From NCBI GenBank assembly GCA_031213475.1, contig JARUPZ010000002.1, forward strand, positions 3,286,001 through 3,350,000: DNA of 64,000 bases, written 5' to 3'. This DNA comes from Nereocystis luetkeana. Lineage: Eukaryota; Sar; Phaeophyceae; Laminariales; Laminariaceae. The notes under the pieces are model-generated. The model searched no databases, was not told where the DNA came from, and saw only the letters and a list, made by a program, of their open reading frames with translations. The position numbers were made by a program, and so were the translations under genes. How positions within the stretch are numbered: position 1 is the first letter of the stretch; every line of letters begins with the position of its first letter. This document shows, one piece after another, positions 1,863 through 54,095 of the stretch.

Positions 1863-1969
1863 AATGTACCAGCCGAATTTTGTTTGCTTGTGAAAACAAA
1901 AAGAAGGTTTTCGAATCTTGCTACGGCCCCAGCACCTTTGTGTGATCATGTACACCTTGACATGAGAGT

Positions 1970-6205: not shown

Positions 6206-6429
6206 CTTCGAAGGCGTGCCGGCAAAGCAGGGGGGGGGGGGGGAGGAGGGGGGGTGAGGGGTACGAGTTTCAACACAACATAAAACAGCAGCGGCTAATA
6301 ATTGGAAGAGTTGATTCGATGGCATGGGGGGGAAAAAACAGCGTAGCACATCAAGACGAAGTGCGGGTGTGCATGGTAACACGAAAATGCGTTTTTAGGG
6401 AGAGGGAGGCGCAGGGGAGGGGGGGGGGG

Positions 6430-8946: not shown

Positions 8947-8981
<35 letters not shown>

Positions 8982-8996
8982 ACCTCAGCAGCAGCT

Positions 8997-9031
<35 letters not shown>

Positions 9032-13753: not shown

Positions 13754-14051
13754 TGTTGACTGTGCTAAAAGATACGACGGAGATGATCCATTTTGTAGTA
13801 GGGAGTTCCATATATCGATGAGGCGTTGTGTGTGAGGGGAACATCTACGTGGAATTAGTGGCTATATTGCGGGAGAAAGGGACGTTTCATGTCTGGCAGC
13901 TTGCTGGATAATGTCCTTCGATGTTTCGTCATGGGCTGTCACTCGACAGCTCGATAATAATACAAGAGAGAGTTTCTGTGTTACTGCCGTCTTGAGTCAT
14001 CAACGACGTGTTCCTGTGCCAACTACGTATACCTTTAGAGATCAATCAACA
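13754..14051 (+). repeat. 3' LTR of Copia-1
   Basis: 298 bp, preceded by the purine tract GAGCAGGGGGGA and followed by the target duplicate GATCT. The duplicate is part of a GATCTGTATGATCT repeat, so the element landed in the GATC family. Confidence 0.95.
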
Positions 14052-25816: not shown

Positions 25817-26089
25817 TACATTAAAAAAAGGTTTTCCAGGGGGTTCAAGGATACCGCCTCTTTAGCTTGAGCCACAGCTCAAATTCCTTCTCCGCCCCCA
25901 GAAGCGAAACGCCTCGGGTTTCCGCCCCAACGTCGAGCCCCGAGAGCTTCGCGGCAAATTTTTAACGTCACGGGACAGCTCACGCGGGCTTTGATTGCGC
26001 GCCGCGCAATGTATATAAAACCCCTGTTCTGGCAGGCACTGGAGTCATTCCCATTGACATACGCCAACTTTTATGAGAGTCCTCGGCAG

Positions 26090-26530
26090 ACATCGATCGA
26101 CAAAACCTACGATACCGTCATGAATTCTGAACGTAATGCGCTGATTAAGGTCTCCGACCCACCCTACTGTCACAGTGCTCACACCTCCGTCGGTGATATG
26201 TGGCGTGGGCTGACCAGGCGTCTGATAAAAAATCGTTTTGGCGCTGGTCTGTATAAGACAGATGACAAAAAATCTCGACCCCTCTCCGATGCCAAGAAAT
26301 CGACCATTTTTCAGGTTTGACATCGATCGACAAACCCAACGATTACGCCATGAACTCTGAATGAAGCGAGCTGATTAGAAGCTCCGACCCACACTAGTAT
26401 CACAGTTCTCACACTTCGGTCGGCGATATATGGCGTGGGTGGGCCAGGCGTCTACTAAAAACATATTTGGCAGCTGGTGTGTAGAAAACAGACGACAAAA
26501 ACTCTCGATTCCTCTCCGTTGGCACAAAAC
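26090..26530 (+). repeat. Diverged tandem duplication of about 240 bp
   Basis: ACATCGATCGACAAAACCTA (26090) and ACATCGATCGACAAACCCAA (26322) start two units. Both contain GTGATATGTGGCGTGGG or GCGATATATGGCGTGGG, CCAGGCGTCT and ACAGATGACAAAAA or ACAGACGACAAAAA. I recognise no product; the rest of 25817-27244 shows nothing else I can name. Confidence 0.75.
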
Positions 26531-27244
26531 AGAACTTTTTTTTTAAGTTTTGACGAAGAGCGTAGGACGCCGCGGCCAACTTCTCGCCACCTAGACCACG
26601 GATGCCGATGATACCTCCGAGGCCATAACTTTCTCTAATTGGCCTTGCCCGGTACGAAGCTCGTTGACCATGGGTGGATTACATGCCGAGATCGAAGGTC
26701 AATCGTCGCGTGACTGGGTGTGCGAGCTGCGAGCTGTGTCTTTCTTTACCTTGTTTGTGTGCGGCGTGATTTCGCGTGGTTCCCGTGGTTCCCGTTAACA
26801 CAACGATTTTACTGGAAGATGGCTTCCGTCGTTCGCGTTCTTTCAGCCATTTTGATTGGAAGATAGCTGGCGTCAACTGTCCCGTGTTATTTTACACTTG
26901 CCCTCCCCCCACGCTGCGCGCGCGCGTGTGGGTCTCTGCTCCCTGCCCGGGAACAGCCACTGGTAAAGCGACCGGAGTCTCGGCTTCCGGCGCGGGTGTC
27001 TGACATTTTTCGTCGGGTTTTAGAGCGAGCAAGTGTTTCGAATACCGCTCTCTCAGTGATCGATGGAAATGGTAAATAGGTTTATCGGAGGGATAAATAT
27101 ACACCAGGGTAACTACTTACATATATCTCACTCTCTGGGCGTGCTCGATTGGTACATCCCTGGCCTCTCAGAGCTCCCACTTGGAAATCGCCTCCGTCTA
27201 TTACTTGCTGGACCTTTCCAGCGTTTTTTTGTTCTCTCCATTTC

Positions 27245-28161: not shown

Positions 28162-28410
28162 TGTTCGTTTGGATCGTTCCAGCAGCGACGGTTACAAGTT
28201 CTAGAGGGTTGCGTATATCTTCGCAGGCGTTAGTGTGGATTTTGCCGTGTGTTCATGAGGAGATGAGGAGACTTCAAGCACTCCGTTCTCCGCTCCGAGC
28301 TGCGAGCTAGGCTCCGCTCTCTCTTTCCTCTGTCCTCTAATACAACGAATATAAAGAATTTCATCAGACCACATGGTGGTCGGGGCATCCAGGTTTGGAC
28401 GCTACGAACA
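28162..28410 (+). repeat. 5' LTR of Copia-2
   Basis: TGTTCGTTTGGATCGTTCCA to CTACGAACA. Polyadenylation-like features (ATACAACGAATATAAAG) lie near its end. It matches 34881-35124 with scattered substitutions and small length differences. Confidence 0.9.
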
Positions 28411-28958
28411 CACTACAGGTAGTGACATGAACGTTTGAGGTCTGGTACCAGAAGCCAAGATGCCTTCGGAGAGGTCGGCTCAAGAGGAGCACGATTGTCC
28501 AGGTGAAGTTCAAGATCTGAGGCGCGAGGTAAAGCTCGCCATTGAGCACAGTCAGGCGTCGGTGATGAACGCCACGAGGGGCATGATGGCCGAGTTCACG
28601 GGGAACAGCGGCCGATCGGAGTCCGGCAGCGCTGAGGGCAGCGCTGCTGTTGGGCAGATCCCGCGTGGGATAGTGCCCGTTGCTGTGAGAGATACCCCTG
28701 CTGCTGCTGTAGGCATGGCACGGGATATAGCAGCAGAACAAGAGACAAGATTTGCGCGAGGACGCCTCGCCAGGTTTGGGAGGGACTGGGCGCGGAGGAA
28801 CTGTGTTGCCTGTCGAGGTTGGCCCACCGAGGGGTCAGCCAGACCAGCCTGGGGGGACTGGAGAATGGGGTGCATACCCTGACTGTGAGCTGGGTGGTCG
28901 ATTTGATCTACCTCTCTCGCGCCATTTGGCAGTGAAACATACTCCTGTGCCATCGTTT

Positions 28959-29066
28959 ATTACAGGGGACCATAGTTAGTAGGACCAAATATTGTTAGTA
29001 GAAATGGCTAAATATATAGGTTTTTACGTATACCACAGGTCCTATTAACTATGGTCCCCCGTAATA
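28959..29066. repeat. GGGGGACCATAG-type MITE-like element, copy 2, in Copia-2
   Basis: Ends TATTACAGGGGACCATAGTT and AACTATGGTCCCCCGTAATA; the core is in the opposite orientation to copy 1 (GGACCAAATATTGTTAGTAG). It lies inside the Copia-2 internal region. Confidence 0.85.
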
Positions 29067-29259
29067 GTGGGCTGAAGCCTGAGTTCAATCCCTGGACAAG
29101 AGACGCTCGATATTACGCCAAAGGAGTACGAGGTTTCTTGTCTGCCTTTGTGTCGGATCCACCGCAGTACATTCCCGTACGTAAAGGGAATTGGACACAG
29201 AGAACTCGATGCTTGTCGCTAGGGGGGGTTTAGCCGCAAAAGTGTGCACATGCACACAC

Positions 29260-29611
29260 TGGCGTGGAATTTCCTGTCGACTGCCCTCAAAAGCAAGAGC
29301 GACAAGAGCACTTTGCACCGGTGTACCTCCCCGAGGCAAGCGTGGGACGCTCTCCTCGCGTGGTACGGCCCTTAAACGGCGGGGGCCAAGTCGGGCCTCT
29401 CGAGACTCCTAAATAGCTTCAATGTAGCACCGGGGAACAACCCGCTCGAGAGCTATTTAGGCGTCTCCAGAGGTCCGACTTGGCCCCCGTCGTTTGAGGG
29501 CCGTACCGCGCAAGGAGAGCGTCCAACGCTTGCCTCGGCGAGGAACACCTGTGCAAAATGCTCTTGTCGCTCTTGCTTTTGAGGGCAGTCGACAGGACAT
29601 TTCACGCCAGC
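29260..29611. repeat. Large imperfect palindrome, arms about 160 bp, within Copia-2
   Basis: The left arm TGGCGTGGAATTTCCTGTCG ... CTCCTAAATAGCT pairs with the right arm AGCTATTTAGGCGTCT ... CGACAGGACATTTCACGCCA around a 32-base spacer (29419-29450). Arms differ at scattered sites. Next to it, 29619-29710 is an inverted copy of part of the same element's RNase H region. Confidence 0.85.
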
Positions 29612-29799
29612 CAACGCTATGGCCTCCTGGTTATCCTCGAAAACCCGAACACATGATCCGCTTAGCTCTGGACAAATAAACGACAACACCGCGCCCGTAA
29701 AAACAGGCAACGCGGCTCCTCCGCGTCCAAGTCAAAACCCCACGTCACGACGAGACTATGGGTTCCTCTCAAGGGGGCGGGGGGACCCTCACCGTTCCC

Positions 29800-30241
29800 T
29801 GGATGGTGGATGAGCTGGACGACGGTCTGGCTCACTTGGACGACCTCGATCTGGACGCGTTTATGCAGGAGCGAACACAGCAGGTTTTTCGTCGCCGGCC
29901 TCTCGCCGGCGGCAGGTACCTGCTGTGTGCGCTCCAGCATAAACGCGTCCAGGACGAGGTCGTTCAAGCGAGCCAGACCGTCGTCCAGCTCATCCACCAT
30001 CGTCGCCGGCCTCTCGCCGGCGGCAGGTACCTGCTGTGTGCGCTCCGGCATTAACGCGCCAAGGTCAAAAACCCCACGTCACGCAACCTGGACGCGTTTA
30101 TGCACGAGCGCACACAGCAGGTACCTGCCGCCGGCGAGAGGCCGGCGACGAAAAACCTGATGTGTGCGCTCCTGCATAGACGCGTCCAAGGCCGAGGTCG
30201 TTCAAGTGAGCCAGACCGTCGTCCAGCTCATCCACCATCGA
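29800..30241. repeat. Interleaved palindromic modules within Copia-2
   Basis: The module GATGAGCTGGACGACGGTCT ... GACGCGTTTATGCAGGAGCG ... GGTACCTGCTGTGTGCGCTC appears forward and reversed several times, separated by short GCCGGCCTCTCGCCGGCGGC hairpins. A third, forward copy lies at 32320-32480. Confidence 0.8.
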
Positions 30242-32319
30242 ACCTCTCAAGACGCCTGAATAGCTTTAGGATAGCGCCGGGGAGCAACCCGCTCGAGGAG
30301 ACGGGCAGGATCGAGGATCTTGCCGCGGAAAGGCGCAACGCAGGAACGTCAGTAGACGACCACATGCTGTACACCTGTACACCATCTTTATTGACGCTAT
30401 GCCTGCCGAATACGAGGTGGAGGCTCGGAACCTGGCATCGCGTGACAGCATCGGCCGTGATGACATCATCAAGGCTGTTCGAGAGCGGCGACACCGACTT
30501 TCTGGAAACAGGAAGAAGGGGTCCAACGCTGGCCACGCAGGCCATGCTATGTACGCCGGCGGCGGTGGCGGTGGCGGTAGTCGCGGACAGGGTGGGGGTA
30601 ATGGCGGAGAAAAAGGCGGACGGCGACGACAGCCTGGACGAGGTGGAAAAGGCACCAACGAGGACGGTGGTGGCTCGGCCGCGGCTGCTGGTAGCGATGG
30701 CAAGTGTCATAGGTGTGGCAAGGAGGGCCATTGGAGGAGCGACTGCACGGCGAAGCTATGCAGCCGATGCCAAGGACGGGGGCACTCTGCCGATGCCTGT
30801 CCCACGCCCACGGACCGATGCAGTCGATGCAACGGACGGGGGCACGCTGCTGATGTCTGCCCCTCATCGAAAGAAGAAGCTGTCATGGCGGTGGCGAGCG
30901 AGGTTGGGGCAAGGGACGACGACCAAGAGAAAGGTACGGTCCAGGCCTCAGCTTTTAAGGCGGAGGAGACAGGCAAGTACGGTGAAGGTTCGGGGGAAGG
31001 GGAGCCTGCTTGGCAGGTAGGAGACGAGGCATGGATACGTGATAGTGGTGCGTCTACTCACATGACGCCCTCAGCGGATTGCATGATCAACTATAGAGAA
31101 TGCAACCTGGAACTGCGAATCGCCGATGGGTCCACTCGATCGATCGAAGGTTACGGTGACATAAGCGTTGTCTTTCGGTCCGGAAACGGTCTCGTGCAAG
31201 CGCTACTTACGAACGCTGCGCACGACGTGCCGGATCTCTGCTACCACCTATTATCCCTGCCCACTATCGTCAAAAACGGCCACACTTTCGAAGGGCGCCC
31301 CACGGGGGTTGGAGCCAGGCTCAAGTCAGAGCGTTCGATCGTGTTTCCGCTGAGTGGGACCCTTTGCAGGCTGTACAGCTACCGGGTCGACCGCAGTGGT
31401 GGGGGAACTGCCTGTGCTGTACTCGCCGCGGGGCAACTGCCCCACAAGTCTGCGATCAACATCAATGACTTCCACTGCGCGGCTGGACACTCCCACGAGG
31501 TATTACTCCGCAAGACCGCGGAGCAGCGAGGGATTGTCCTCGAGGGAGAGCTGCTGGAAAGCAGAGGGTGCTCCATGGCGAGGGGTCTCCGCAAAGGTAT
31601 CAAGCAGTCCACACACACACACACGAGCAGATAAGAAGCTTGGGAGGCGCGGAATTGTTCGAGCAGTTCCTTGCGGATTCTCGTGCAGACGGTTACCCTT
31701 CTACTGTGGTAATCGTCCGATCTGATGGAGGTGGCGAATTCCGCGGGGGCAAGTTTGGCGACCTGTGTAGATCACGAGGGATCAAGCAGGAATTCACGAC
31801 GGCCGACAGTCCCCAATTCAATGGAGTAGCACAGCGCGCGCTGGGTTTGATCGAGACGGCCGTAATGGCGGGTCGAATCCAGGCTCCTGAGTTTTTCCCC
31901 GGCGCGCAACTCCCGGCCATTGCGTCGTTGTGGGCGGAAGCGTTCCACTGGGCGTGTGACGCCTTGAACCGCATAGCAACGACAGCTAACCCTGGGAGCA
32001 AGTCGCCGCATGAGATGTGGCATGGTAGCTCCCCCTCGGTAGTACTACTACCTTTTCTCAAGCCTGGCTACTGCAAGGTGAAGAGGGAAAACAAGGCACA
32101 GGCACAAGCGCAAGAGTGCTTTTACCTTGGTCCTGCACCCAACTACCCCCGAGACTCAGTACGAGTATTGACGAGGCAACGCACTGTGCAAATCACACGA
32201 AATGTCACCTGGCAACGCGTGTCGCCTGCACCACCTGCACCTGCCCAGGCGAATGACTCCATATCTACGGAAAAGGGGGGGGCCGAGGCGGACGACGCGA
32301 GCACGTCGGATCGAGGTGG

Positions 32320-32480
32320 TGGGGGGGGTGGCGGATGAGCTGGACGACGGTCTGGCTCACTTGAACGACTTCGACGGGACGTGGGGTTTTGACCTGGACG
32401 CGTTTATGCAGGAGGGCACCCAGCAGGTACCTGCCGCCGGCGAGGCCGGCGACGAAAAACCCTAGACGATGGGTTCGTCT
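32320..32480 (+). repeat. Second-site copy of the palindromic module
   Basis: GGCGGATGAGCTGGACGACG, GTTTTGACCTGGACGCGTTT and AGCAGGTACCTGCCGCCGGC repeat the 29.8-30.2 kb module. It lies between the integrase and reverse-transcriptase parts of Copia-2 and is followed by ATGGGTTCGTCTCAAGGGGG, also found near 29760. Confidence 0.8.
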
Positions 32481-34707
32481 CAAGGGGGTGCCATGGACGC
32501 CTCCTCGGTCTCGGCAGGGAGGGCCGAAAGCGACCCGGGTGTAGCCTCAGCCTCCGAAACCGGCCAACGGAACGGTGAGGGTCCCCCCGCGATCCTGTCG
32601 GGCAGGCCAGCACACGAGCTGAGCAGCTGGGGACGGCTCCCTCCAACAGTACGGGGCCGGACCCGGGGTCAGAGCCAACGCCTAGAGGGTGAACCTGCTG
32701 TGCACCAGCTAAGTATGGATAAAGGAGCCGCAGACGCACTGCTTGTGGCAGCGTGCGAGTGGTCGACGACGCCTGGGAGTATCCTGAATCGTACGTCACG
32801 GACGACGGAGGACGCAGTGGCCTTGATGGCCGGAGGACCTGCTGTGGAGAATAAAGGGAAGTTGAGCGTGTGCATGCTGAGTGGTTTCCCGGAAGACGTA
32901 GAACAGCCCCCGCAGTCCGTAGCAGATGTAGAGTTCCCAGTATAAAGCGGCGTGGCACGAGGCCATGCAAATTGAGTTGGACGGACACGAAACGACCGGT
33001 ACGTACGAAGCCGTGACACCGCCACAAGGGCGGAAACATGTAGGTGCGAGGTGGGTGTTTACCTACAAGACGGATAAGGATGGCCTGATAGTAAAGACAA
33101 AGGCCAGACTTGTGGCTAAGGGTTTTAGCCAGGTGCAGGATGTAACACTTTGGAACGTTTGCACCAACTCCCTCGTCAGCGTCAGTTAAACTTCTGGCGG
33201 CTGTTGCCAACGAATATGGTCTGAAGATCTTTCATCTAGACGTCGCACAAGCTTTTGTTCGCGCGAAACTTCTAGCCGAGATATACATGAAACTGCCCGG
33301 TGGGTGTGGTGACATGTCAGGAAGGCTGGTCCGCTTGAACATATCACTGTATGGTCTAAAGCAGAGCGGACGGCAGTGGGCCGGACTATTGGTAGATACG
33401 GTGGTAGAGTACGGTATGGAGCAGTGTAGGTCTGACCCGTGTGTGTCGCATGGTTGTGGACGGCAAGGTAGAACTGATCATGGCGGTTCATGCAGATGAC
33501 ATCGTGATCGCAGGATCGGACGAGACATGCAGAGATTTCCATGCCGCGCTAGTTACGAAGTTCCCCACAAACAACCTCAGCGACCTGACTTGGTATACTG
33601 GTTGTGCTTTCAAACTCGACTGGAAATTGGGGATATTGGAGATTGTGCAGAAGGCGTTTATTGAGAGCATACTGAATCGTTTAGGTGTTAACTCATCCTC
33701 TGACATCCCCGCGACCCCCGGTGTGGAACTAGGTCCAAGAGAGGAGGGCGAACTTGGAGGAGACTGGCCGTGCACGGAGGCTGTGGGCAGCTTGATGTGG
33801 CTGTCGACCATGACGAACGAGGCAGGACATCTCGAACGCTGTGCGTGCTGTGGCGCGCCACTCCCACAACCCAACGGAGAGGCACTGGAAGGCAGTTTTG
33901 AAGATTAAGGCTTACCTCCATGGGACCAGGTTTATGGGATTGACTTTTGTGCGGGGCTCGGGATTGGATTAGACTGCGTATAGTGATGCTGATTATGCTG
34001 GTAAGTCGAACGATAGACGCTCGGTATCGGGGACGGTAATTACCCTAGGGGGTGCGGCCGTCAGTTGGGCAAGTAGCACGCAGAGGTGTGTTACGTTGTC
34101 GACAGCAGAAGCAGAGTATGTCGCCCTGGGTGAAGGGGTGAAGGAAGCTTTGTTTACGGGCGCGGTGTTGTCGTTCATTTGTCCAGAGCTCAGCGGATCA
34201 TGTGTTCGGGTTTTCGAGGATAACCAGGGGGCCATAGCGTTGGCTGAGAACCCTCTTAGTTCTGCGCGGAGTAAGCATATTGACGTGCGTTATCCTTTTG
34301 TCAGAGAGCTACTTCGTGCTAAGATCGACATTCAGTTAGTCGCCTCGGAAGAACAGCACGCGGATATTTTGACGGAATCCCTTGTTGCGACCCCTTTCAA
34401 GTCTCATCGTAGGTTCTTGTGGAATCTGCCTTTGGAGGGTGCATAAGAGGGTATGATCATTATTCGATGAGTACCATGTTTGAGTGATGCGAGGAATAAT
34501 TTGTCAGGTCGCCAACCCTGCGCTACTTTGAGGGGCATGGGGGAGTAGGGCACAGCTTGGCATTTTATTTTCTGGCCATGGTCATCGTTTGGAGTGCGGC
34601 CGCTGTTTCAATTGCAATGGTTTGGAGTATATATGCCATACAGGGAGTTTTGACCCTGTGGCCGGGTTTTCTCCTGCGGGGCTGTCGTTGGCTGTTCGTA
34701 GGTCCTG

Positions 34708-34825
34708 TTACGGGGGAACATATTAAATACCTGGTAGGACCTACGGTACACACAAAAACCTACATATTTCGCTATTTTTACTATATTAACAATATTTGGC
34801 CCTATTTACTATGGTCCCCCGGAAT
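34708..34825. repeat. GGGGGACCATAG-type MITE-like element, copy 3, in Copia-2
   Basis: Ends TTACGGGGGAACATATTAAA and TACTATGGTCCCCCGGAATA. It carries a small internal insert, ACCTGGTAGG. It lies just upstream of the Copia-2 3' LTR. Confidence 0.8.
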
Positions 34826-34880
34826 AGCAAGTCGTGAATATCGCTTCGGTCTCGTCACTGCTGTGAAGAGCCAGGGAGGG

Positions 34881-35124
34881 TGTTCGTTTGGATCGTTCCA
34901 GCAGCGACGGTCACAAGTTGTAGAGGGTTGCGTATATCTTCGCAGGCGTTATTGTGAATTTTGCCGTGTGTTCATGAGGAGAGTTCGAGCACTCCGTTCT
35001 CCGCTCCGAGCTGTGAGCTAGGCCCCGCTCTCTCTCTCCTCCTCTGTCCTCTAATACAACGACTATAAAGAATATCATCAGACCACGTGGTGGTCAGGGC
35101 ATCCAGGTTTGGACTCTACGAACA
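34881..35124 (+). repeat. 3' LTR of Copia-2
   Basis: TGTTCGTTTGGATCGTTCCA to CTACGAACA, followed by the target duplicate CGCTT. The purine tract CCAGGGAGGG lies directly upstream. Confidence 0.9.
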
Positions 35125-35159
35125 CGCTTCGCATAATTTGATGCGTATTTTTTATTTTT

Positions 35160-35734: not shown

Positions 35735-36895
35735 GTTGCAGTTGCAAATTGGCGACTTGATAATGCCAAGAGTCACATGCCGTACGTACGTACGTACGTA
35801 CGTACTGGTATACCCCAGGTAGGGTCCTGATTTTCTTCTTTCGATATGCTGTATGATATGTACCTGGTATGTACGCACGAGAAAGCACAGCATTTTTTAT
35901 TTTTTATTTTCTCATCCCATTCATTATCTTCGCCCATCTTCTTCTCTCTCTCCTTCCAACTCGTAACTCAGATCCGGGGTCACATAGCAGGCCCTTCTAC
36001 CCCCTTCCCGCTACGGTACGTCCCTTCATTTTTATCGCGAGAAGATTTCAGCCTTTTTCTTCCCTCGTCGACTCGCATCGAATTGTGCCTACCCACGCTG
36101 CAAGGCGCTCTCAACAATTGAATCCTTTTTTATTTTTGCAAATAAAGTCAAAGTTCGACCCACCTGGGGCTCGAACCCAGGACTCAAACAAGTAGAATTC
36201 GAGGTTAACCACTTGAACCACCGGCATGGCACAGCACAGCAGCACCGCAAAAACAATATGAAACCGAAAAATATGGAAAGAGAAAAAATCCCCGTCCCCT
36301 CTCATGTAATAATTGTCTGCCTCTGGAACACCTTGCATCACTCAAATAAGTAAAAAAATAAACAAAATGAACAGCAGAGCTTCTCTCTCAGCCTCGTACG
36401 CCGCCCGCCCCTCTCTCGACCATCTCGCCACCGATTCGGTCCGGGTAAAGCTTTCCTCCCTCTCTGTCACAGTGACCCCCGTTGCCCACCCCGCGTGAAG
36501 CCCGGTGCTCACCGTGACCCTCGTTCGCGAGCTCGACGATATCGATGGTCAGACGGGCGTTCGTCTCTGTGTATAGTTCAGGGTGGTTGCAAAAATAAGC
36601 ACCGCTTGAATGCTAGCTTGCAATCCTGAACGACCCTTATGAACTCGTACATACTCAGTCTAATTTTTCAGATGGAGGCAAAGGAGAGCCCATCCATGCT
36701 TCCCTTGTGTCTCGAGGCACACACGACGCCTAGCCACGAAAACCGCGACCGCACTCCTTGCAACCCCCCCTCTACCCGCCAGCATCCGCCGACACCCGCG
36801 ACGGCGCCGGGCTCGCCCGTGTCGCGGTGCTCCGACTACACACGCGCACACGAAACGTAAGAAGAAAAAAGGAAAAAATAACTGAAAGTGCAAAA
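35735..36895 (-). repeat. Right arm of the long inverted repeat flanking Copia-2
   Basis: It is the reverse-complement partner of 27245-28120. It carries an additional SINE (35893-36228) that the left arm lacks, so the left arm preserves the empty site. Confidence 0.8.
35893..36228 (-). mobile_element. tRNA-derived SINE, copy a
   Basis: Read on the minus strand it starts with a tRNA-like head: A box TGGTTCAAGTGG and B box GGTTCGAGCCC, with arms CTGGGTTCGAGCCCCAG. Next come a TTTGCAAAAATAAAAAAGG stretch and the body CGCGATAAAAATGAAGGGAC to GATCTGAGTTACGAGTTGG. It ends in an A-rich tail. GCACAGCA flanks both sides as a target duplicate, consistent with LINE-driven insertion. The head would fold poorly as a functional tRNA. 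Confidence 0.8.
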
Positions 36896-38265: not shown

Positions 38266-38364
38266 ATTAACCCCTTTGGAACCGCAGTCCCGTTTTGGGG
38301 ACAAACTACTTGAAGTTTGACTGGTTTGTCCCCACATATGGGACTGCGGTTCTAAAAGGGTTAA
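38266..38364. repeat. TTAA-type palindromic MITE-like element, copy 4
   Basis: TTAACCCCTTTGGAACCGCA and TGCGGTTCTAAAAGGGTTAA enclose GGGGACAAACTACTTGAAG. TTAA stands at both ends. Confidence 0.8.
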
Positions 38365-40177: not shown

Positions 40178-43100
40178 TCAGCCCTCCGCTATCTCCTGCT
40201 CGTCGATGAAAGCTTGGTCGTCTTTCCTCTCTTCCTGGGCGCCCTCCACCGCGTTCACTGCTTCGCACTCGTCGATCCAATCCGTGTAGACATCTATTGG
40301 TTCGGTTAAGTCTGCAGCAATGATCGACAAACGGGGAGGGGGGATAGGTGCCGATACCAGGAAGCGGGCGGGAGAGAGGGGGGGGGGGGGAGGGAGGCAG
40401 GGGAGCAGGAAAACAGGAAGGCAGGCAGGCAGGCAGGCAAGGAGGGAGGAATGTGAGGCTGGGGTTTTGCTTTTCACGGGAAGGTTAACTGGCGCAGGCG
40501 TTGCACGTGCGCAAAAAGACGACCGGGCTCACAACCGGTGGTAGCCTCCAGGGTCTCTCTCTTTCTGCCTCGAAAAAACTAATTGGCTGTTCGGGCATAC
40601 AAGGCGGGGAGACTGCTGTACTTTTTTTTTTTTTTTTTTTGCTCATCCCATTCATTATCTTCGCACACCTTCTTCTCTCTCTCCTTCCAACTCGTAGCTC
40701 AGATCCGGGGTCACATAGCAGGCTCTTCTACCCCCTTCCCGCTACGGTACGTGCCTTCATTTTTATCGCGAGAAGATTTTAGCCTTTTCTTCCCTCGTCG
40801 ATTCGCATCGAATTGTGCCTACCCACGCTACAAGGCGCTCTCAACAATTGAATCCTTTTGATTTTAATTTTTGCAAATAAAGTCAAAAGTCCGACCCACC
40901 TGGGGCTCGAACCCAGCACTCAAACACAAGTAGAATTCGAGCTTAACCACTTGAACCACCGGGGCGACCGGCTTACTGTAGGAAATAAATGCGCCATAGA
41001 CGATGCCCTCGTGTGGGTTTTGTAACGAAAACACGTGACAACGGCAGGGATCGATCTGCACCTTGGCCTCGAAAGCTCGGGGGGGCTTTTTCTTGCTGAG
41101 ACCACAAGCAGCCAGGCTCCCCCTCTTCTACGTGAATTTCGCCGACCAACACCGCAGGGGACACACGCGAAGCCGCAAGGTCTTGGTCAGCCTCGATACG
41201 TCAACTCACTTGCATGCTCTGCACCAAGAACACAACACCTTCAACCAGCAGAATTCATAGAGTACATATCCGTACGTCACGCGAGAAAAACTCTCGTTTT
41301 TCGCCTATTAATAGGAGCTGTTGTCGAATACACACCAGGCACAATGTTTACATACGCTTCAGACTTCCAGGGCTTTGAGGCGAGCCGTACACGGCCAATC
41401 TCGCCGGGCTCGTACAAGACCCCTCCCGCACGCATCCCTTCCACCGACCTCGAGACGATGGAATGTCGCACTTGGTGGTACCAATACGTAGTGACCCTGC
41501 AGAGATCGTAACAGGCGCTGCCAGGTCGAGCCTAGAAGCAGAACCTCGCGAAACTACTCCACGAATAACCGCGGTGGACGCAGCGACTCACAGTTTATAC
41601 CCATCTCGTAGTTGATATCGCACATGCGGCACTGCAGTCTCGCCGTTCCTTCCTTCCGATCCCTGCCCAAAGCGGATTTGAACCAGGGGCCGGAGAGAGA
41701 GTGAGAGAGAGAGTTCAAACGCGAACGCACAGATCGGGTAGAACAACGGGGCAGAACCAAGCTTGTGATTAATGAAAAAACAGCAGTAATGCTGCTGTAA
41801 GAAGAGACCGCTGTACTGCTGTGCCCCCGGTGTTACACTGCAGTGCAGCGCCAGTGAATGTCGTTGGCACTTTTCCCCCTAGACGCCCATACTAACGGTT
41901 GGGATAGAGGCATGGATTTGCTGTACCGTGGGTGCTATATTAGCACTATACTCAGGTAATTACCATTGCTGCCGCGGTTGGAATGCTATGCTTCGGCCGC
42001 TTCGCGAGCTTCTTGAAAGATAAACCAACACTGACCGTACAACTCGGACCAAATGCGCGCAGAGTGCTATATTCCAGCCACACGGTACTCGCCCACCAGC
42101 AGCATTCGGACACGAGGAGAGCGACACGCCGTGTTGCCATACGTAGGAGTACAGTAGTGAGTTCTAAGAGATGTGTTCTCGGCTCCATCGTCGTACCAAT
42201 ATCATCCGCCGTAGAACAGCCCCCAACATTCGCCGAGGCTACGGATACGCTTCAATACTTCCTTGGTACATCGTATTGAACGACCGCGGTCGCCCATGTT
42301 TCAAGCCTACTACTGCTATCGCCAGTTACGTGACATGTGCTGCTATCGCCAGTTACGTGACACGCCCCGTGGACAAGCCATCGTCGACGCCCTACCGAAA
42401 GTCCTTGAACTGTGAGACAAGATATTCCGCTCGTGCTCACTCGTGCTTTCGCCTTCCTCATTGTGGCCCAAACCGTGCTTGATCTTACATGAAACCTGGC
42501 GCGTACTCCGCGCTACTATATCAGCCGAGGGAGGACGTGTCGCAGACGTCGAGGAGTCGAACCGGGGATCCCCTCCCCTCAATGGCAACGATGAAACGCA
42601 TGCGCACCCCTACGTCGAGTCTATGTCCTCAGAGGACGGGTTGGGGCGCCCATGCTTCTTTTTCGTCGGACCGCTGGAAGATGGCGTAGCCGAAGCCGAT
42701 TCACGCTCTTCCCGGGTGTGGGTGTGACACTGCTCAGTCGTGTGAGCCCGCTTGCTACAGCACCGGTGGCAGGAAGCAGGATCACACGAATGAGCGCTGT
42801 CACACCAACACCAACGAGGACGGTGAATCGGCTCCGGAAGCGCCTCCCACCGGCTCGAAGAAAAACAAGAAGAGTCCCCGCAACAACCCTTGGTTTGAGG
42901 GCGAAGTTTCTCACGCAGCGGTGGGTGCCCAGGTGTGGTAGAAACTCCGAAAATCCTGGCTCCCTGCTTCTGAATCTTCGAAACGTGTGCTGGCTTCTCC
43001 AGTGCTAACAACTTCAAACGTGGGGGGGCATTGTGGATTCCAAGCATTGTGGATTCCAAGCTCTCGATCCCATCGTCGTACGTATCTCATCCGCCGTATG

Positions 43101-46100
43101 ATAGATCCTAAGTTCGCCGAGGCTACGGATACACGGCATTGCATCCTTCGTACCAGTATATCGGGTTGAGCGACTGAGATCGTCCCTGTTCCAAGGCCAT
43201 GACTGCTGTCGCCAGTTGCGTGACATGTCCCGTGGACAAGATACTATCGACGCCCCACCAAAGGTCCGTGAACTGTGAGACGGAAATATATTCCGCTTGT
43301 GTTCACTCGTGCTTTTGCCTTCCTCGTTTTGTATTTTTCATTTTTTTTCATCATCACTTTTACTCAACTCGCAGGAGGCTTTTACCCTCAGCGGTCTTCA
43401 TCCCAGGGACAAACCGTGGTCACAGGTGTCGTCCCTCCCCCCCCCGGTGCGTGCCTTCATTTTTATCGCGCATAGGGTGCAGCACTCCCACTGCCCGTCG
43501 ATTTCCATCGGACGTCGCTAACTCACGCTCTCGCGCTTTCCGCTATTAATAGTCAATTCTTATGCAAGAAAAAATCCGTATATAGGGGTATATGCACCCG
43601 GTGAGACTCGAACCCACCAAATTGCCATTAGCAGGCACGCGGACCACCTACCAAGCCGCAGGGGATGTCGGCTGGTAGGGCCCAAACCGTGCTCGATCCT
43701 ACATGAAACCTGGCGCGCACTCCGTGCTACCCATCAGCCGACGGGAGGAAGTGCCGCAGACGTCGAGTCGAACCCGGGGTCTTCTTCCCTCGTCGGCGTC
43801 GATCAAACACATGGGCACCCCTACGTGGAGTCTTTGTTCTCCACAAACACATGGGCACCCCTACGTGGAGTCTTTGTGCTCCAAGGACGGGATGGGGCCC
43901 CTATCCTTCTTTTCGTCGAAGCACCGGAAGATGGCGTGGCCGAAGCCAATTCACCTTCCTCCCGGATGTCGGTGTGACACTGCTTAGTCGTGTGGTCCTG
44001 CTTGCTGCAGCACCGGTGGCAGGAAGCAGGACCACACGAATGAGCGCTGTTACACCAACATCAGCGAGGAAAGTACACCGGCTTCGGAAACGCCTTCCAC
44101 GGTCTCGAAGGAGACACAGGAAGACGCGCCGCAACGTGTGTTCTGAGGGTCAAGAGTCCACGTAGCGGTAGGTGCCCAGGTGCGGTAGGCAGTCCCAAAG
44201 TATGTCTCCCTTCTTCTAAGTGTTCGAAAGGTGTGCTGGCTTCTCCAGAGTTGACAAGATCAAACATGGGGGGATTATGTGGTTCCAACTCCTCTACCCC
44301 ATCGCCACACGTATATCATCCTCCCTACAATACGTCCCAACATTCGCCGAGGTTAAGGCATTCACGTTATTTAGTAAGCACTTCGTAGATCGTTTTGCAC
44401 AACCGCGGTCGTCCATGCTCCAAAACCAGTGACTCGCATTGCTATCGTCAGATACGTGACATGTTCCGTGGACACGTAATTGTTGACGCCCTACCAAAGG
44501 TCCTTGGACTGCGAGACAAGAGATTCCGCTCGTGCCCACTCATTCGTTTGCCGTGGTCAGTAGAGCCAAACCGCGCTCGACCCTGCACAAAACCTGGCAC
44601 GTACTCAGGGATACTTTATAAGACAAGGGAGGCAATGCCGCGGATGTCGAGCCGAACCACCGGGTTCCCTCGCCTCAATGGCGTCGATGTACCACCTGGG
44701 CACTTCTACGCGGAGTCTATGTCTTCACAGGACGGGTTGGGGCGCCTTTCCTTCTTTTTCGTCGAACCGCTTGAAGACGACGTTGCCGAATCCGATTCAC
44801 GTTCCTCTCGGGCGTGGGTGCAACACGCTCAGTCTTGTTGTCCCGCTTGTTGCAGCACCGGTGCTGCAGCAAGCAGGGCTACACGGCTGAGCGCTGTTAC
44901 ACCAACATCAGAGAGGAGGATGAAACGGCTTCGGAAACTTCTCCTACCGGCTCCAAGATAAACAAGAAGAGGCGCCGCGACCCGTGTGTCGTAAAGGCGA
45001 AGGTTTTTTACGAAGCCGTGAATTCCCAGGTGTGGTAGATACACTCGAAAGTCTTCCTCCCTTCTTCTAAGTGCTAGAAGCATGGGCTGGTTTTTCCAGT
45101 GTTAACAAGTTCACACATGGGAGGGCGAAGATGGGTTCCTAAATCTCGACCCAACAACCGTCGCATGTGCATCATCCCCCGTACGACGGGTCCCGATATC
45201 CGCCGAGGTTCCGGATACACTTCATTCAGTACGTACGTAATTCGTACCTGGTACGAAGGTCGTATGGAACGAGTGCGGTCGTCCATATTCCAAGACCAGT
45301 TAACACTGTTATCAGATACGTGCCATGTCCCAGGGTCCTTGTTGATGCCCCATCAAAGATCCTTGGACTGCGAGACGACAGGAGATTCCGCTAGTGCTGG
45401 CTCGTTCGAGCTAAAACCATGTTTGATCCTACATATAACCTGGCGCGTGTTCCGCGCTACTACGAGTACACAAGCCAAGGGGGAAAAGTGTCGCAGATGC
45501 TGAGACGAACAGCCCCCGCCCCGTCGTCACTGGCGTCGACGAGACACCGGGGCACCCCTACGTGGAATCTTCGTCCTCAGAGTATGGGTCGGGGTCCCTA
45601 TTCTTGTTTTATGTCGAACCGCTGGAAGATTGGCATTCCCGAAGCAGACTCACTTTCCTCCCGGATGTGGGTGTGACACTGCCCAGTCGTGTGGTCTCAC
45701 TTGCCGCAGCACCGGCGGCAGCAAGCAGGACCACACGACTGAGACCTGTTCCATCAACATCTCTAGGAGCCCGAATCAGCTTCAGAAACGTCTTCTTGCT
45801 GGCCTGCTGTTGCGTACCTCGACGCTACGATCGTAGTGGATGTCGTGTGATGTGAGTGTGTGAAAGAGTCACCTTGAGAAGGGTTTCCTGGCGACCATAG
45901 GGCCGTGATCTAGGGGATAGTAATTTTTCATCCTTGCGGTTTCCAAGGTGAAATATTATCGGGTAACCGACTACCTGGGGCCCACATGCGGGTACAAATG
46001 GTTACGATACTTGATGCTCGTACCCGTGACGGGTATTGGCAGGCCGGGTAATACCCGCGGGTACCCGGGCAAGTAGCAAAATGCACATTTTTCACTCCGC

Positions 46101-46842
46101 TTAGAGTAGTACTGCACACGGTACACCATACACCAGTGCAAGCCTTTTTTTTTTAACCAGAGTCACCAAAACGCAGCGAGGCAACACATGAAATATGGAA
46201 TGCTGGTATGTTACAGCAGTAGCACTGCTGTAAGGGCAAGTACCGGGTACGTGGTATCGCATTACCAGGTACATATTCGGCATACGAAGTACAGGTATGA
46301 ATATAGCTTCGAGGATGCATGTACGAGTATCGGGCTCTACTGCTCGAGAGCCCTTGACCCATTACGGAGCAACCCGTATTACTGTCCACGACTTGCTTTC
46401 ATATACCCCTCAAGATTTCGACAGCTGTGGACGGCAAACACATAGGGGCTCTCTGTACACGAGTACACGGCAAGTCTGCAGAGCTCCTCATTTGCACGGA
46501 AAGCCTCGACATAGAGGCAGCACGTGACACAGCAAAAGTACAGTATTAATAGTAGCAGCAGCAGCACCAGTGCTGCATGCTGCGCAACTCCTGTTGAGGA
46601 ATCAACCCCCCAGCGGGTGATTTCCACGGATGAAGCCACAACTCGAGTGAACGCCCACACATCACCTATCGCATGCAGTCTACCAGGGCGGATAGTGGTG
46701 GCGACAGAAGCTGCTCGCTCATCGCTCACATGGTGCACTCGACGACCTTGTCGTGGTTGCAGAAGGGGCACTTGAACACCTTGTCCAGCTTCGAATTCTT
46801 CTTCACCACGATCTTCTTCGTGCTCTTCTTTCGGCGACCCAT
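40178..46842 (-). CDS. ELOF1: Transcription elongation factor 1 homologue (ELOF1/Elf1)
   Basis: Three exons join in frame to 105 aa. Exon 1, 46842-46730, reads MGRRKKSTKKIVVKK and KVFKCPFCNHDK, with donor GTGAGC. Exon 2, 41662-41592, continues DRKEGTARLQCRMCDINYEM, with donor GTGAGT. Exon 3, 40311-40178, reads LTEPIDVYTDWIDECEAVNA to the stop. Split codons give Met38 and Tyr62. ELOF1 is a small zinc-ribbon protein that travels with RNA polymerase II and helps transcription through nucleosomes and lesions. The basic MGRRK start, CxxC pairs C25/C28 and C49/C52, and the EPIDVYTDWIDECE helix are family hallmarks. The protein has a charged 24-residue C-terminal extension absent from the 83-residue human form I recall. 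Introns are about 5.07 and 1.28 kb, full of repeats. It is divergent with PHB1. Confidence 0.93.
40621..40970 (-). mobile_element. tRNA-derived SINE, copy b
   Basis: Same head and body as copy a (minus-strand B box GGTTCGAGCCC; body TTTTTATCGCGAGAAGATTT on the plus strand). It ends in 20 T on the plus strand, a poly-A tail in its own direction. It lies in intron 2 of ELOF1, in the gene's sense. Confidence 0.8.
42140..45870. repeat. Four-unit tandem array of hairpin-forming repeats
   Basis: Units of about 850 bp share CATCGTCGTAC, ATTCGCCGAGG, ACATGAAACCTGGCGCG and TCGAACC blocks. Each is centred on an inverted repeat whose tips meet at GCACCGGTGG: near 42761, 44011, 44855 and 45709. In the first, GTGTGGGTGTGACACTGCTC left of centre pairs with GAGCGCTGTCACACCAACAC to the right; pairing continues for about 100 bp or more per arm. 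Spacing is about 1250, 845 and 853 bp; the long one contains SINE copy c. The array lies in ELOF1 intron 1. Confidence 0.85.
43328..43680 (-). mobile_element. SINE with a different tRNA-like head, copy c
   Basis: On the minus strand the head has GCTTGGTAGGTGGTCCG and a B box GGTTCGAGTCT (arms GGTGGGTTCGAGTCTCACC), followed by a body with GCGATAAAAATGAAGGCACG as in copies a and b. It interrupts the second unit of the 42140-45870 array, between GCCTTCCTC and GGGCCCAAACCGTGC, which are nearly adjacent in unit 1. Confidence 0.7.
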
Positions 46843-47496: not shown

Positions 47497-50400
47497 ATGG
47501 CCGAAAAGGTGCTGCAGAACGTGTCGCGGCTTGGCGGCGTGGTGGCATTAGCAGCAGCAACGTGAGTGCGCGGCGCCATCCCTCTCTAGAGCGGGCTATG
47601 CTTGGTCTTGTCGTGGTGATATGTCTTGTTGTGTATCGGCATTCCCTCATGAGGAGTTCTTTGATTCAGGCCGAGAACACTCCAGAACTGCAAGATGTTG
47701 GGTTGACACACACCGCGTGCTGTTGTATACCGGTACTGCTGAAGAACGAAGAGCCGTCAGCCTCTGCTGTGCCAGTCAGGCTGTGGGGCAGCAGCACGCA
47801 GTAATGCTTTTACCTGGTGTGATACTGCTGTGTAGCACTGTGATACCTGTATCAGGTGTACCTGGCAGGGCGTAGTAGTTCCGGCCAGAGGGCTTTTGTG
47901 CTACGTGTCCTCAGTTTCTGAGCCACCTTAGGCGACGCCTTCGCTGATCGACTGCTGCCTGGTTGTTGTCCGGCGACGTTTTCTCCCGCCCGCTCTATAA
48001 TACCAGGGTATGAGTATTTTCTGCTGCAACACAGCAGTGATCTCAGCGGTCAGCATACGATTGGTCTCACCGCGTACCCGGTAGTATCTCATCGCTGGAA
48101 ACCGCGACCCGTGACCCCTGCCCGTGTCTCCGGCAACGCACCAATACTTGCTGTGCGAGCTTCCATCTGGTCGGCGTTGGATTGCAAAGTTGACTTACAC
48201 ATCGTGGGATGGCAGAGGAATGTGTCATAGACCACCCTAAAAGTGCGTACATCACCCGAGTTCCTACAGCATATACACCTGGTAGCTCTCTACTCTCTGC
48301 GTGGTATGTTAGAGGGGGGCTAGATACCACGACTAACAAGTAACGTTTGGTCTCTCTCGCCCCCCCCCCCCCCCCTTACTCCCCTTTTTTACGACGCCTT
48401 GGCGTGGTGCTGCCTCCGGTCTCACTCTTCGGCGACGCTTTTTGATTGGCCGGCGATGGGACTGGGGAAAATTCCCTGAAATGATATTCTTCTCTGCCAC
48501 TGGCACGGTTCGCTCAACCACACGACTTTGACCCGCGCGCGACCCAAAGGGAGATGTGTCTGTTCAACGTCGACGGCGGGCAGCGGGCGGTCATTTTCGA
48601 TCGATTTCAGGGGGTAAAGGAGGCGGTAGTCGGGGAGGGGACGCATTTCATGATCCCCGTCGTGCAGAAGCCGATCATCATCGACGTGCGCGCGAGACCC
48701 CGCACCATCAACTCCATCACGGGAACCAAGGACCTCCAGATGGCCAACATCTCGCTCAGGGTGCTCTCCCGGCCTCTCGAGTCCGAGCTGCCCCGGATCT
48801 ACCAGGAGCTGGGGACCGATTTCGACGACAGGGTATTGCCGTCGCTGGGGAATGAGGTCAGTGCCAAGCCCTCGATGTCTCCCGGCGGACCAAAAAATAA
48901 AACTTGAAGAGGCACTTATCGTGTGTTCCCCCTCGTTTTTGCATGTTGGCGGTACAGGCTTCCAGTGTTTGAACTATCTTACAGCAACGGGATCGGAGTT
49001 GTCACACGCTAACCTGAAAGATTAGCCAGCCTGCTCGACAGAAAGTGTTGATAGTCACACCGAGGGCGAAGACATTCCGTGTGGCAAACTACAGTAGTAA
49101 GGGTCAGTGTAAAACGTGTGCTCTGCCCGTGTATTTCCCGTGTTTTTTTTGTTGTTGCGTGGAACGTGACGCCAGGTTCAGTCCGTCAGCTTACGCACGC
49201 CGACTCAGGCGGAAAGACACGTGTGTGGTGTGTGTGAAGTGCGTGCGTGAAACCGAAATTTAAATCATACTGGGGGGGGGGGCGGCACCCACTGACGTGC
49301 CGCGTTGTTATGTCAGCCCTGACCTTGATGTACGCAAGTGACACCTGCGTCCACGCCCACCCCTGTACGGCCAAGCGCGTCGATCACACACGGAGCCAAC
49401 AAATCGCGAGATCTATCCTGTCGTTGCGTGACTATTTCGGCTCTGGCGTCCCCGCGTTTGCGATCGAAGTTGGTTGACACCTCTTCGCACGCTCAGTTTT
49501 CGGTCCATAGGTCCAGAATATACGTCGAGTATCGTGCGAGCCCTGCACGACGCCGCTGGTTTCATCGGTTAGAGTCTGGCGCATGCGTGCTGCGAAAGTT
49601 GCTGTGCGCGATATTTTCTGGTTGGTGGGTCTTGTTCCGGTCTGAGTAGGTGGTCAACCCTCCCTTCCTTCCTTCCTTCCTTCTGTCCATAGTGGTCTGG
49701 CAATGTCAGAAGTGAGACACGAATCCCCCCCCCCCCCCCCCCACCATCACCGCCACCACCACCAACAGCAACACCATCAAAAACAACAATAACAGTGATA
49801 ACAATCACCGCCGCGTGCAGGTGTTGAAGGCCGTGGTGGCCAAGTACAACGCGGAGGAGCTGCTGAGCAAGCGTGAGTCCGTGAGCACTCGCATCCGCGA
49901 CGAGCTGACCCACCGCGCAAAACAGTTCCACCTGATCATGGACGACGTGTCCATCACCCACCTCACGTTCGGGCACGAGTTCACCAAGGCCATCGAGAAC
50001 AAACAGGTGGGTGTTTTCTGCGTTTGTCCTGTGGGTTGCGCTATGTTTTGCGTTTTTCACCCGTAAAACTGAAAAAACGGCTCCGATCCTTTCCCCGGGG
50101 AACAACTTTCAAGGAGTTCAATTAACGGGATGTTTTCCTCGGGGAGAGTTCGTTTCACTTGGTTTTAGACTCTGTCTCGAGTTTTTCGCGTGAACCGGTA
50201 CCAATACGCCCGATGAAGTAAGGTTCCTTGGGTTACTATTAATAGTATAAGTACCGACAATGTCTTGCCTTTCCGGATAGGGTGGCGCTGCTGCTTACCA
50301 CTGTCTGGAATCATAAGGACTGTCGGGGCATTTATTCTATTACGGGGGGCCATAGTTAATAGGGCCAAATATTGTTAGTAGAACAGGTTAAATATATATT

Positions 50401-51635
50401 GGTAGGTGTTTATGTATACCATAGGTCCTACTACCTATGGTCCCCCGTTATAGTATCAAAACTCTCTTACATATCCGGACAGGGTGGTTATATTTCTGCA
50501 GTACTGCTGCTGTTTTTGAATTTTGACGGGAAACGCGTCCTTCCTGCCACTGCAAGCACAGGGTTTGTTCCCCCTGCTGCAGGCAAGAGCTCGGGTTAGA
50601 CCAAGCTAGTGGTGCTGGTATTATAGTCTGGTGATGGTGCTGCTGTCGTCTGCCTACGCTTACGCACTCAAAACTTGTGCCTGTGGCCTCTTGGCAGATG
50701 AGGGTAAAGGGTACAGGGATAGCAGGCTTCGCAGCCCCCAGCTTTCTACCCTCTCACAGACAGAGCGCAGACCCCGAGACACACAACAAGGCACAGACTA
50801 TAGGGGGAAGACACCGCCGCACCACCATGGTGTTGGGCCACCCTCTGCTTCGTCGGTTGTCTAAGCTCGCGAGCTGCAACAGCGGTTTCTCTCTTCCTCG
50901 CGCGCACCACCTCTCGTCTCGTCTGACAAAGGCGGCGCGATCGTGCTGCCAGTAACCGACGTTTTGTCTCAACAAAATCCCTACGAAAACTCGTCTTTGA
51001 TTGGTGCTACTTGGCAGAAAATTCCAGATTTTTTCAATATAAACCCCCAACAAAAATTGCCTAACGTACAGGTGCTGTGCCAATAAAAGAAAAGAAGACG
51101 GCGTCCAGTCATTCAGCCGTCTGCGTTTTGTACTATGGTGTTTTTTTTTTCGTTCATGTATTATCAATGGGTTGTCTTTGACTCGTTTTGCTTTTGTTTT
51201 TGGCCGCAGTCGTAAACACGACCGCCTGGACGGGATTTAAATAGGGCATCAATAAAAAATAACAGCAGCACCAGCAGCATTACCGGGCGCAGCAGGACCA
51301 CCACCACCGCCACCACAGACCCCTTTCCTCCCCCTCCCCCCTCCCGGCGCGCGTAAAACAAACGACAGGTCGCGCAACAAGAGGCCGAGAGGCAAGTGTA
51401 TGTGGTCGCTCTCTCCGACCAGGAGCGACTGGCGGCCATCATCCGGGCCGAGGGAGAGGCCGAGGCAGCCGAGCTAATCTCGGCGGCGCTGAAGGAGAGC
51501 GGTATCGGACTGATCGAAGTGCGGCGCATCGACACCGCCAAGGAGATCGCGCAGACCCTGGCCACCTCGAGGAACATCACCTACCTGCCTAGCGGCAACG
51601 GGTCCAGCATGCTCCTCGGACTTAACACGGCTTAG
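47497..51635 (+). CDS. PHB1: Prohibitin 1
   Basis: Four exons: 47497-47561, 48550-48856, 49821-50006 and 51369-51635, with GT-AG introns (donors GTGAGT, GTCAGT, GTGGGT), joining to 274 aa; human PHB1 has 272. Prohibitins form ring complexes with PHB2 in the mitochondrial inner membrane and support membrane proteins, proteases and cristae. Residues 1-27 form a hydrophobic anchor ([10 protein letters not shown]). The PHB/SPFH domain follows, with [54 protein letters not shown] and [20 protein letters not shown]. The C-terminal coiled coil has [13 protein letters not shown] and the protein ends [16 protein letters not shown], typical of PHB1 rather than PHB2. No damage is seen. It is head to head with ELOF1. 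Confidence 0.96.
50338..50452. repeat. GGGGGACCATAG-type MITE-like element, copy 4
   Basis: Ends TATTACGGGGGGCCATAGTT and ACCTATGGTCCCCCGTTATA, with the core in the same orientation as copy 2. It is in the last intron of PHB1. Confidence 0.85.
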
Positions 51636-53651: not shown

Positions 53652-54095
53652 GAAACCCAAGTTCGATGCTCAGATTGCACGCCATGTTACAAACCTCTTT
53701 TGGCCCGAGTTCGATTCTCGGATTCAACCCCATTGTAACAAACTTCATTTGACCCGAGCTCGATTCTCGGGTTGGTCGCAGTGCTGTGGACCTCGCCTGA
53801 CCCGAGTTCGATTCTCGGATTGGACATCATGCTACGAAATTCGTTAGACACAACTTTGATTCTCGGATTGGACACCATGTTACACTCCTTGTCAGAGCCT
53901 ACTTCGATTCTCGCACTTGTACACCATTGTAGCAAACTCCGTCTGGCCCGAGCTCGATTCCCGGATTGGACGCCATGCTACCAACATCGTCTGACCCCGA
54001 GTTCGATTCTCGGGTTGGACACCATGCTACAAAATCCGCTTGACACAAATTTGATTCTCGGATTAGGCACCATGTTATAAACACCGTCTGCGCGC
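53652..54095 (+). repeat. Nine-unit array of tRNA T-arm-like boxes, 48-50 bp period
   Basis: Each unit contains a CCGAGTTCGATTCTCGG-like stem-loop followed by ATTGGACACCATGCTACAAA. The TTCGAT (or CTCGAT/TTTGAT) cores lie at 53662, 53710, 53759, 53807, 53855, 53903, 53953, 54002 and 54050. The boxes approach the RNA polymerase III B box GGTTCGANTCC but lack its first G and last C, and no A box is seen. Confidence 0.85.

Follow-up and report, generated by a model that had tools for sequence, protein, structure and literature searches.

Intron 1 of ELOF1, in the 64,000-nucleotide stretch of DNA that was analysed as a whole (the window), carries an array of about four head-to-tail units, each containing one palindrome, and this array probably arose when a composite repeat was duplicated in tandem on the spot, and has decayed since.

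Results

The three joined exons match Pfam Elf1 (E 5.7e-31), which identifies the host gene as ELOF1, and the array lies between exons 1 and 2, where the original prediction had placed it (table 1). It runs from 42177 to about 45800 and consists of three whole units, 850-890 bp long once the SINE is set aside, followed by a fourth that is cut short. A dot plot and a tandem-repeat analysis had been proposed as checks on the claim of four tandem units of about 850 bp; self-comparison by blastn gave the expected direct diagonals, as strong as E 5e-156 (weakest separate pieces about 1e-11), but Tandem Repeats Finder did not report the array, and the longest period it gave there was 500. Pairwise identity between units is 0.70-0.78 (K2P 0.26-0.38), in agreement with the earlier view that the copies are old. 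The head-to-tail arrangement is that of a satellite or tandem repeat; large or multiple genomic arrays were not found, the seeded genome searches returning a single array of about four units. Comparison of its two flanks gave nothing beyond short matches, the best (E 0.013) in CAG-like motifs at 41780-41801 and 46213-46234, and lends no support to terminal repeats around the array.

Table 1. Features of ELOF1 and of the array in its first intron (positions in the window)
Feature	Position	Strand	Remarks
ELOF1 exon 1 (coding part)	46730..46842	-	coordinates by hand from sequence
ELOF1 intron 1	41663..46729	-	holds the array
ELOF1 exon 2	41592..41662	-	boundaries inferred from GT-AG sites and reading frame
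ELOF1 exon 3 (to stop)	40178..40311	-	joined-exon translation
Unit 1	42177..43061	+	885 bp; palindrome ~42605-42936 (profile); dyad 42764/42765
Unit 2	43062..44290	+	890 bp with SINE set aside; palindrome ~43847-44182; dyad 44014/44015
SINE	43332..43672	-	~341 bp; inserted in unit 2; abundant dispersed family
Unit 3	44291..45146	+	856 bp; palindrome ~44692-44985; dyad 44859/44860
Unit 4	45147..~45800	+	654 bp; truncated within right arm of palindrome; dyad 45713/45714

The long spacing of one unit had been attributed to a SINE, and such an insert is indeed present in unit 2. A first look at the genome gave 4186 candidates for its family, and among the 40 that were scored 39 are 78-82% identical, the remaining one being the query itself, so that the insert has the abundant, dispersed short copies expected of a SINE. 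Its minus strand carries GGTTCGAGTC, spotted by eye, which we take to be B-box-like; ARAGORN (bacterial code) found no tRNA gene. Unit 2 also carries a 40-bp internal duplication (43804-43883).

Each unit has one palindrome, centred on GCACC/GGTGG, and units 1 and 2 carry GCACCGGTGG unchanged, while units 3 and 4 each differ from it at one position. The inverted repeats were detected by blastn at 42655-42869 (74%), 43930-44097 (78%) and 44732-44985 (74%), and the profile gives palindrome lengths of 332 bp (unit 1), 336 bp (unit 2), 294 bp (unit 3) and 254 bp (unit 4, which is cut). The original prediction had described the whole unit as centred on an inverted repeat meeting at CACCGGTG; the inverted repeat is present in every unit, but only about 295-335 of the roughly 850 bp are palindromic. 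A loose alignment suggested that the whole unit is a single palindrome whose second dyad faces the first, and this was ruled out by controls in which self-complementarity was followed with distance from the centre (z 25.6 at 0-140 nt, 3.8 at 140-220 nt and at most 2.3 beyond). The hairpins of units 1-4 fold with z of -9.1, -9.5, -10.2 and -5.2, none of the 200 shuffles for each folding as well, whereas 200-nt windows of the array outside the palindromes range from +2.2 to -1.8 (30 shuffles each). All four hairpins are predicted on the ELOF1 sense strand and, given their position in the intron, would be transcribed. Other parts of the window are also rich in palindromes, among them a small cluster of tandem palindromic modules (1677-2065).

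Outside the array the palindrome was not found in the 465-Mb genome by seeded DNA searches, which can miss diverged copies: the hairpin of unit 1 gave five matches, the core pattern five and the whole of unit 3 seven, all within the array. Viral contigs scanned with two core patterns gave no match to either. The label of fold-back element is therefore apt in part, in that the inverted repeat can fold back, but it occupies about a third of the unit, is placed away from the unit's ends, and the dispersed copies expected of a fold-back element or MITE did not appear in these searches. The non-palindromic parts of the unit have relatives elsewhere. For the head (unit positions 1-415) one outside relative was found, on C18 (E 3.3e-17; profile E 1.1e-27 and 1.4e-14), and for the tail (738-843) one on C29 (E 5.9e-13; profile E 1.4e-15), which is the yield of a seeded search able to miss diverged copies. 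Both are isolated pieces that lack the palindrome of the array, and the two stretches have nothing in common with each other. Since the palindrome was found only in the array and the relatives of head and tail are without it, the unit looks composite, a palindrome embedded in old dispersed sequence, the whole then multiplied in place.

In a tree of the palindrome arms (83 columns) the left arms stand apart from the right arms with a bootstrap of 0.90, and the two arms of any one unit group together no more than 11 times in 1000 replicates. Identity is 0.76-0.85 between left arms, 0.70-0.79 between right arms and 0.66-0.74 between left and right arms. The separate grouping of left and right arms places the inverted duplication before the tandem one. 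The original prediction found it puzzling that a fold-back structure should be amplified in tandem within an intron; the puzzle is milder than it was made out to be, because the inverted duplication came first on this reading and the segment containing it was then duplicated in tandem, and because further palindromes, a small tandem cluster among them, occur in this window as well.

Protein coding in the units was rejected, codon-phase bias being absent from every one of the 15 ungapped blocks that span 90 columns or more. Three of the four window frames of the array that were compared with Pfam had no match and the fourth, which contains the SINE, had one below threshold; the four consensus frames had none at E up to 1, and open frames in the consensus, which reach 151 aa, are only slightly above chance by our own estimate. 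No Rfam family reached its gathering score in the whole window. At E up to 5 the region 41650-46750 gave six matches, of which five hit microRNA families from other lineages and the sixth a snoRNA, and the best microRNA matches (E 0.0044 and 0.0083) both fall in unit 3; none of the six reached the gathering score, and no known microRNA precursor family was thus recovered there.

Within units the arms match at 0.709, whereas re-assigned arms average 0.695, and the within-unit assignment ranks first of 24 by Watson-Crick pairing and fourth of 24 when G-U pairs are allowed. A plain consensus count makes changes rarer at paired sites (79/763 versus 64/372); this count was judged to be biased, and a leave-one-out count, meant to remove the bias, gave 73 changed sites among 593 paired, 26 among 184 unpaired and 192 among 1233 non-hairpin ones (paired versus unpaired p 0.53; paired versus the rest p 0.065). 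The covariation term is +1.44, which is unfavourable, and a two-sided change with the pair kept occurs in 3 of 63 pairs; single changes that keep the pair number 18 of 59, where 12.8 are expected (p 0.07). Column conservation is 0.80 in the left 150 columns, 0.72 in the right 150 and 0.71 in the rest, a modest excess of the left arm and centre over the spacer. Rotations do as well in 19% of cases for the hairpin-sized stretch and in 8% for the inner 120 columns, so that constraint may exist but is not demonstrated. The first rank by Watson-Crick pairing and the better conservation of the left arm are weak hints of upkeep. As the arms lack convincing covariation and the rate of change is much the same at paired and unpaired sites, the data fit neutral decay of the hairpins. 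These tests, which have little power with four copies, do not support a function of the four hairpins.

Discussion

We propose that an inverted duplication gave rise to a palindrome of about 300 bp between the head (unit positions 1-415) and tail (about 740-850) sequences; the homology of the arms is observed, and the mechanism is what it suggests. Within ELOF1 intron 1 the whole segment of about 850 bp would then have been duplicated until there were about four copies, replication slippage or unequal exchange being the probable mechanism; afterwards the SINE would have entered unit 2 and the copies drifted apart. Transcripts of the intron could fold into the four predicted hairpins, and most likely the intron merely carries them and is then spliced out, with no clear indication of selection on the folds.

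The unit could instead be a non-autonomous transposable element of 850 bp with ends of its own, inserted and concatenated head to tail, the C18 and C29 stretches being broken ends of its family. This we consider unlikely. The array begins at unit position 1 and the profile match of the C18 relative at position 4, one of four pairwise comparisons, that involving the start of unit 4, opens precisely at TCTYGACC, and the left edge of the array may therefore coincide with the edge of the relative; such a shared edge fits a pre-formed element as well as a local duplication. The relatives of head and tail lie on different contigs, and Tetris (Tetris / TIR-220), a fold-back element of Drosophila virilis that gives rise to satellite arrays, illustrates that fold-back elements are able to feed tandem arrays (PMC4079207). 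A complete dispersed copy was, however, not found in the seeded genome searches, the inverted repeat is internal and not terminal, no target-site duplication was identified (no systematic search was made), and the C18 and C29 stretches share no similarity. Tetris resembles the present array in tying a fold-back structure to head-to-tail amplification, but according to the parts of PMC4079207 consulted it carries tandem repeats within its terminal inverted repeats and its satellite-like arrays are kilobases in size, whereas here a central palindrome occurs in each tandem unit, in four copies at one intronic site. MITE-derived satellite DNAs are likewise tandem repeats from inverted-repeat elements, although those in the portions consulted of a review (PMC6947457) are named satellite families and not about four copies at a single site.

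By analogy with tandem hpRNA loci of flies, the array might function as a hairpin-RNA cluster, with Dicer cutting the intronic hairpins into small interfering RNAs, a reading that we regard as quite improbable. Four strong hairpins are predicted on the transcribed strand, and tandem clusters of this kind are known: hp-CG4068 and hp-tHMG of Drosophila are likewise tandem hairpins in a single cluster, but their siRNAs are proven by sequencing (PMC10317233), whereas here the hairpins are predicted and the arms have decayed without clear coevolution. In Ectocarpus, probably a related lineage, complex palindromic small-RNA loci (65 weak miRNA candidates) are palindromic stretches of several hundred bases that yield many small RNAs; the sections consulted of PMC4513859 document those RNAs and do not describe the loci as tandem 850-bp arrays, whereas our hairpins are predicted. 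Arms merely 66-74% alike, the absence in four copies of both convincing covariation and significant constraint at paired sites, and six Rfam matches all below gathering score speak against this function. Very doubtful, too, is a cluster of this type in a transcription-elongation-factor gene of a brown-alga-like genome, built from a palindrome that the searches located in this array alone, whose small RNAs could target the dispersed relatives of head and tail. A retrozyme, that is, a tandem ribozyme or viroid-like repeat making circular RNA, would share the tandem units of several hundred bases and the strong self-complementarity, but is exceedingly improbable: none of the six Rfam matches is a ribozyme family, the excess structure is limited to the palindromes, and the hammerhead or other self-cleaving motif expected in every unit was not found. 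The three CTGANGA motifs in 42.0-46.0 kb include two at equivalent places in units 1 and 4, where units 2 and 3 have none, and a ribozyme or viroid-like unit is accordingly not supported.

Read as a decayed local duplication, the array is a legible example of a palindrome that would have formed first and then been amplified in tandem inside a gene, with the matches of its dispersed relatives stopping near the palindrome edges. It suggests that an intron can harbour four strong predicted RNA hairpins with no upkeep that these tests detect, and if small RNAs were found to arise from it, the array would offer a test of how hairpin clusters in introns originate in this lineage.

Structure of the array

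When the interval from 41.5 to 46.5 kb was compared with itself, direct diagonals joined all four of the tandem units that had been predicted (best E 5e-156), and the inverted repeat expected at each unit centre was seen as inverted matches in units 1–3. A repeat search gave families in register, with spacings of about 850–890 and 1210–1250, and a short inverted repeat in the middle of unit 4. GCACC|GGTG, or a sequence close to it, stands at every centre. With the SINE in unit 2 set aside, identity between units is 0.70–0.78, units 1 and 2 being the closest (K2P 0.26) and unit 4 the most distant (0.36–0.38); outside the array, the unit profile had one match in the whole 64 kb, at E 2.5. Small local duplications lie within units 1 and 2 (see table) and suggest repeated slippage in the array. 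The location inside ELOF1 intron 1 also held: the intron is about 5.07 kb long, and the identity of the gene is confirmed by Pfam Elf1 (E 5.7e-31).

The inverted repeat measures 168–254 bp in units 1–3 by blastn, and the palindrome 294–336 bp by profile (254 bp in unit 4), occupying about positions 401–743 of the unit profile. Within 140 nt of the centre the self-match of the consensus is strong (z 25.6); between 140 and 220 nt it is marginal (z 3.8), and farther out z is 2.3 or less. RNA folds predicted for the ELOF1 sense strand have z of -9.1, -9.5, -10.2 and -5.2, and windows of the array off the palindromes, with z from +2.2 to -1.8, show no folding beyond that of shuffled sequence.

Features in and around the array and elsewhere in the window (L035, a stretch of contig C18)
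Feature	Position	Strand	Remarks
Unit 1	42177-43061		885 bp
Unit 2	43062-44290		890 bp with SINE set aside
Unit 3	44291-45146		856 bp
Unit 4	45147 to about 45800		654 bp
Small duplications, units 1 and 2	42311-42363; 43028-43061; 43804-43883
ELOF1 exon 1	46842-46730	minus	placed by hand from sequence
ELOF1 intron 1	46729-41663	minus
ELOF1 exon 2	41662-41592	minus	placed by hand from sequence
ELOF1 exon 3	40311-40178	minus	placed by hand from sequence
Palindrome	29259-29610		352 bp, 86.5%; region of Copia-like element
Nested palindrome cluster adjoining it	29802-30240, including 29802-30001 and 30000-30151		82-94%
Palindromic element, MITE-like	1677-2065		about 97 bp, three clustered modules
Its single relatives	38267-38364; 61833-61931; 62257-62352
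Second palindromic family	2887-2990; 28958-29067; 34705-34827; 50337-50453; 61245-61355; 61558-61668		about 110 bp, six places
Copia-like element	7519-14051		terminal repeats 298 bp
Copia-like element	28162-35128		terminal repeats about 90% identical
Second SINE-like family	35893-36224; 40624-40962		93% between copies
Short tandem duplications	26089-26541; 53655-54090		about 79%
C18 palindromes	L035:6120-6238; 6388-6478		91-126 bp

Relatives of the unit in the genome

The genome searched comprises 465 Mb in 1987 contigs, the window being part of contig C2. All matches to the unit 1 hairpin (5), to a 27-base core pattern allowing three mismatches (5; reversed control 0) and to the whole of unit 3 (7) fell within the array. 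Being seeded, the DNA search can overlook copies that have diverged, and its queries did not include unit 4; run with the SINE, it gave 4186 candidates, of which 40 were scored, and so does detect dispersed repeats. Single copies elsewhere, which the original prediction had proposed to look for, were found for the flanking pieces, matches to the palindrome being confined to the array. A spacer pattern with up to three mismatches matched three places in the array and one on contig C18, and is weak by itself since its reversed control gave one match; this C18 site was also hit when the head of unit 1 served as query (E 3.3e-17), and the unit profile matches there at positions 4–209 and 205–415. 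The tail query found one place outside the array, on contig C29 (profile 738–843). Given the extent of the palindrome on the profile, both matches stop near its edges. Inverted repeats within 3 kb around the head relative are only of 16 and 26 bases, and the 9 kb examined at the tail relative showed none with E of 1e-5 or lower. We infer that the palindrome is a separate piece placed between older dispersed pieces, an arrangement for which alternatives exist. Two palindromes about 1.0–1.4 kb from the head relative on C18 do not match the unit.

Order of events, age and pairing

Identity is higher among left arms (0.76–0.85) and among right arms (0.70–0.79) than between opposite arms (0.66–0.74), and left and right arms separate with bootstrap 0.90 on 83 complete columns, with fixed different letters in only one column; therefore the palindrome probably preceded the tandem copies. 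The SINE in unit 2 is 12.2% off the consensus of 11 other aligned copies (the best of 39 other scored matches among the 4186 candidates), which are 4–10% off each other's consensus, and the units are about 16% off their own consensus outside the hairpin. The array is thus about as old as the SINE insertion or older, in line with the original view that the copies are old.

Whether selection maintains pairing was weighed by several counts. Arms pair hardly better within units (0.709) than across them (0.695), and the within-unit assignment ranks 1 of 24 by Watson-Crick pairs and 4 of 24 with G-U pairs. Leave-one-out changes affect 73/593 paired, 26/184 unpaired and 192/1233 remaining sites; in RNAalifold the covariation term is unfavourable, a two-sided change being kept in 3 of 63 pairs. 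Slightly higher conservation in the left arm and centre counts against a neutral reading, single changes that keep a pair are slightly in excess (18 vs 12.8 expected, p 0.07), and a simpler consensus-based count favours paired sites. On a fair reading of these alignments, constraint on the hairpins is not demonstrated, four copies giving low power.

Comparison with known systems

The array is a decayed, locally amplified tandem repeat with a palindrome, of a known kind and apparently new. It was compared with Tetris (PMC4079207), tandem hpRNA clusters (PMC10317233) and palindromic small-RNA loci of Ectocarpus (PMC4513859), with a review of the passage from TE to satellite (PMC6947457) and Ectocarpus TEs as further background. 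Gene structure, composition and repeats suggest that the DNA comes from a brown alga; PMC12477816 gives an Ectocarpus assembly of 200 Mb, unlike the 465 Mb here. Among the titles listed by the literature searches, with subscription papers mostly outside their scope, none describes the array, weak evidence that it is so far undescribed.

Other repeats in the window

Within the window, palindromes look ordinary, a small tandem cluster included. The two terminal repeats of the Copia-like element at 7519-14051 are identical, hence its insertion is probably recent; a stop codon separates its integrase and reverse-transcriptase frames. The other Copia-like element is probably older. The second SINE-like family had no blastn match to the unit 2 SINE beyond a stretch of about 38 bases (43433-43470) that the two have in common.
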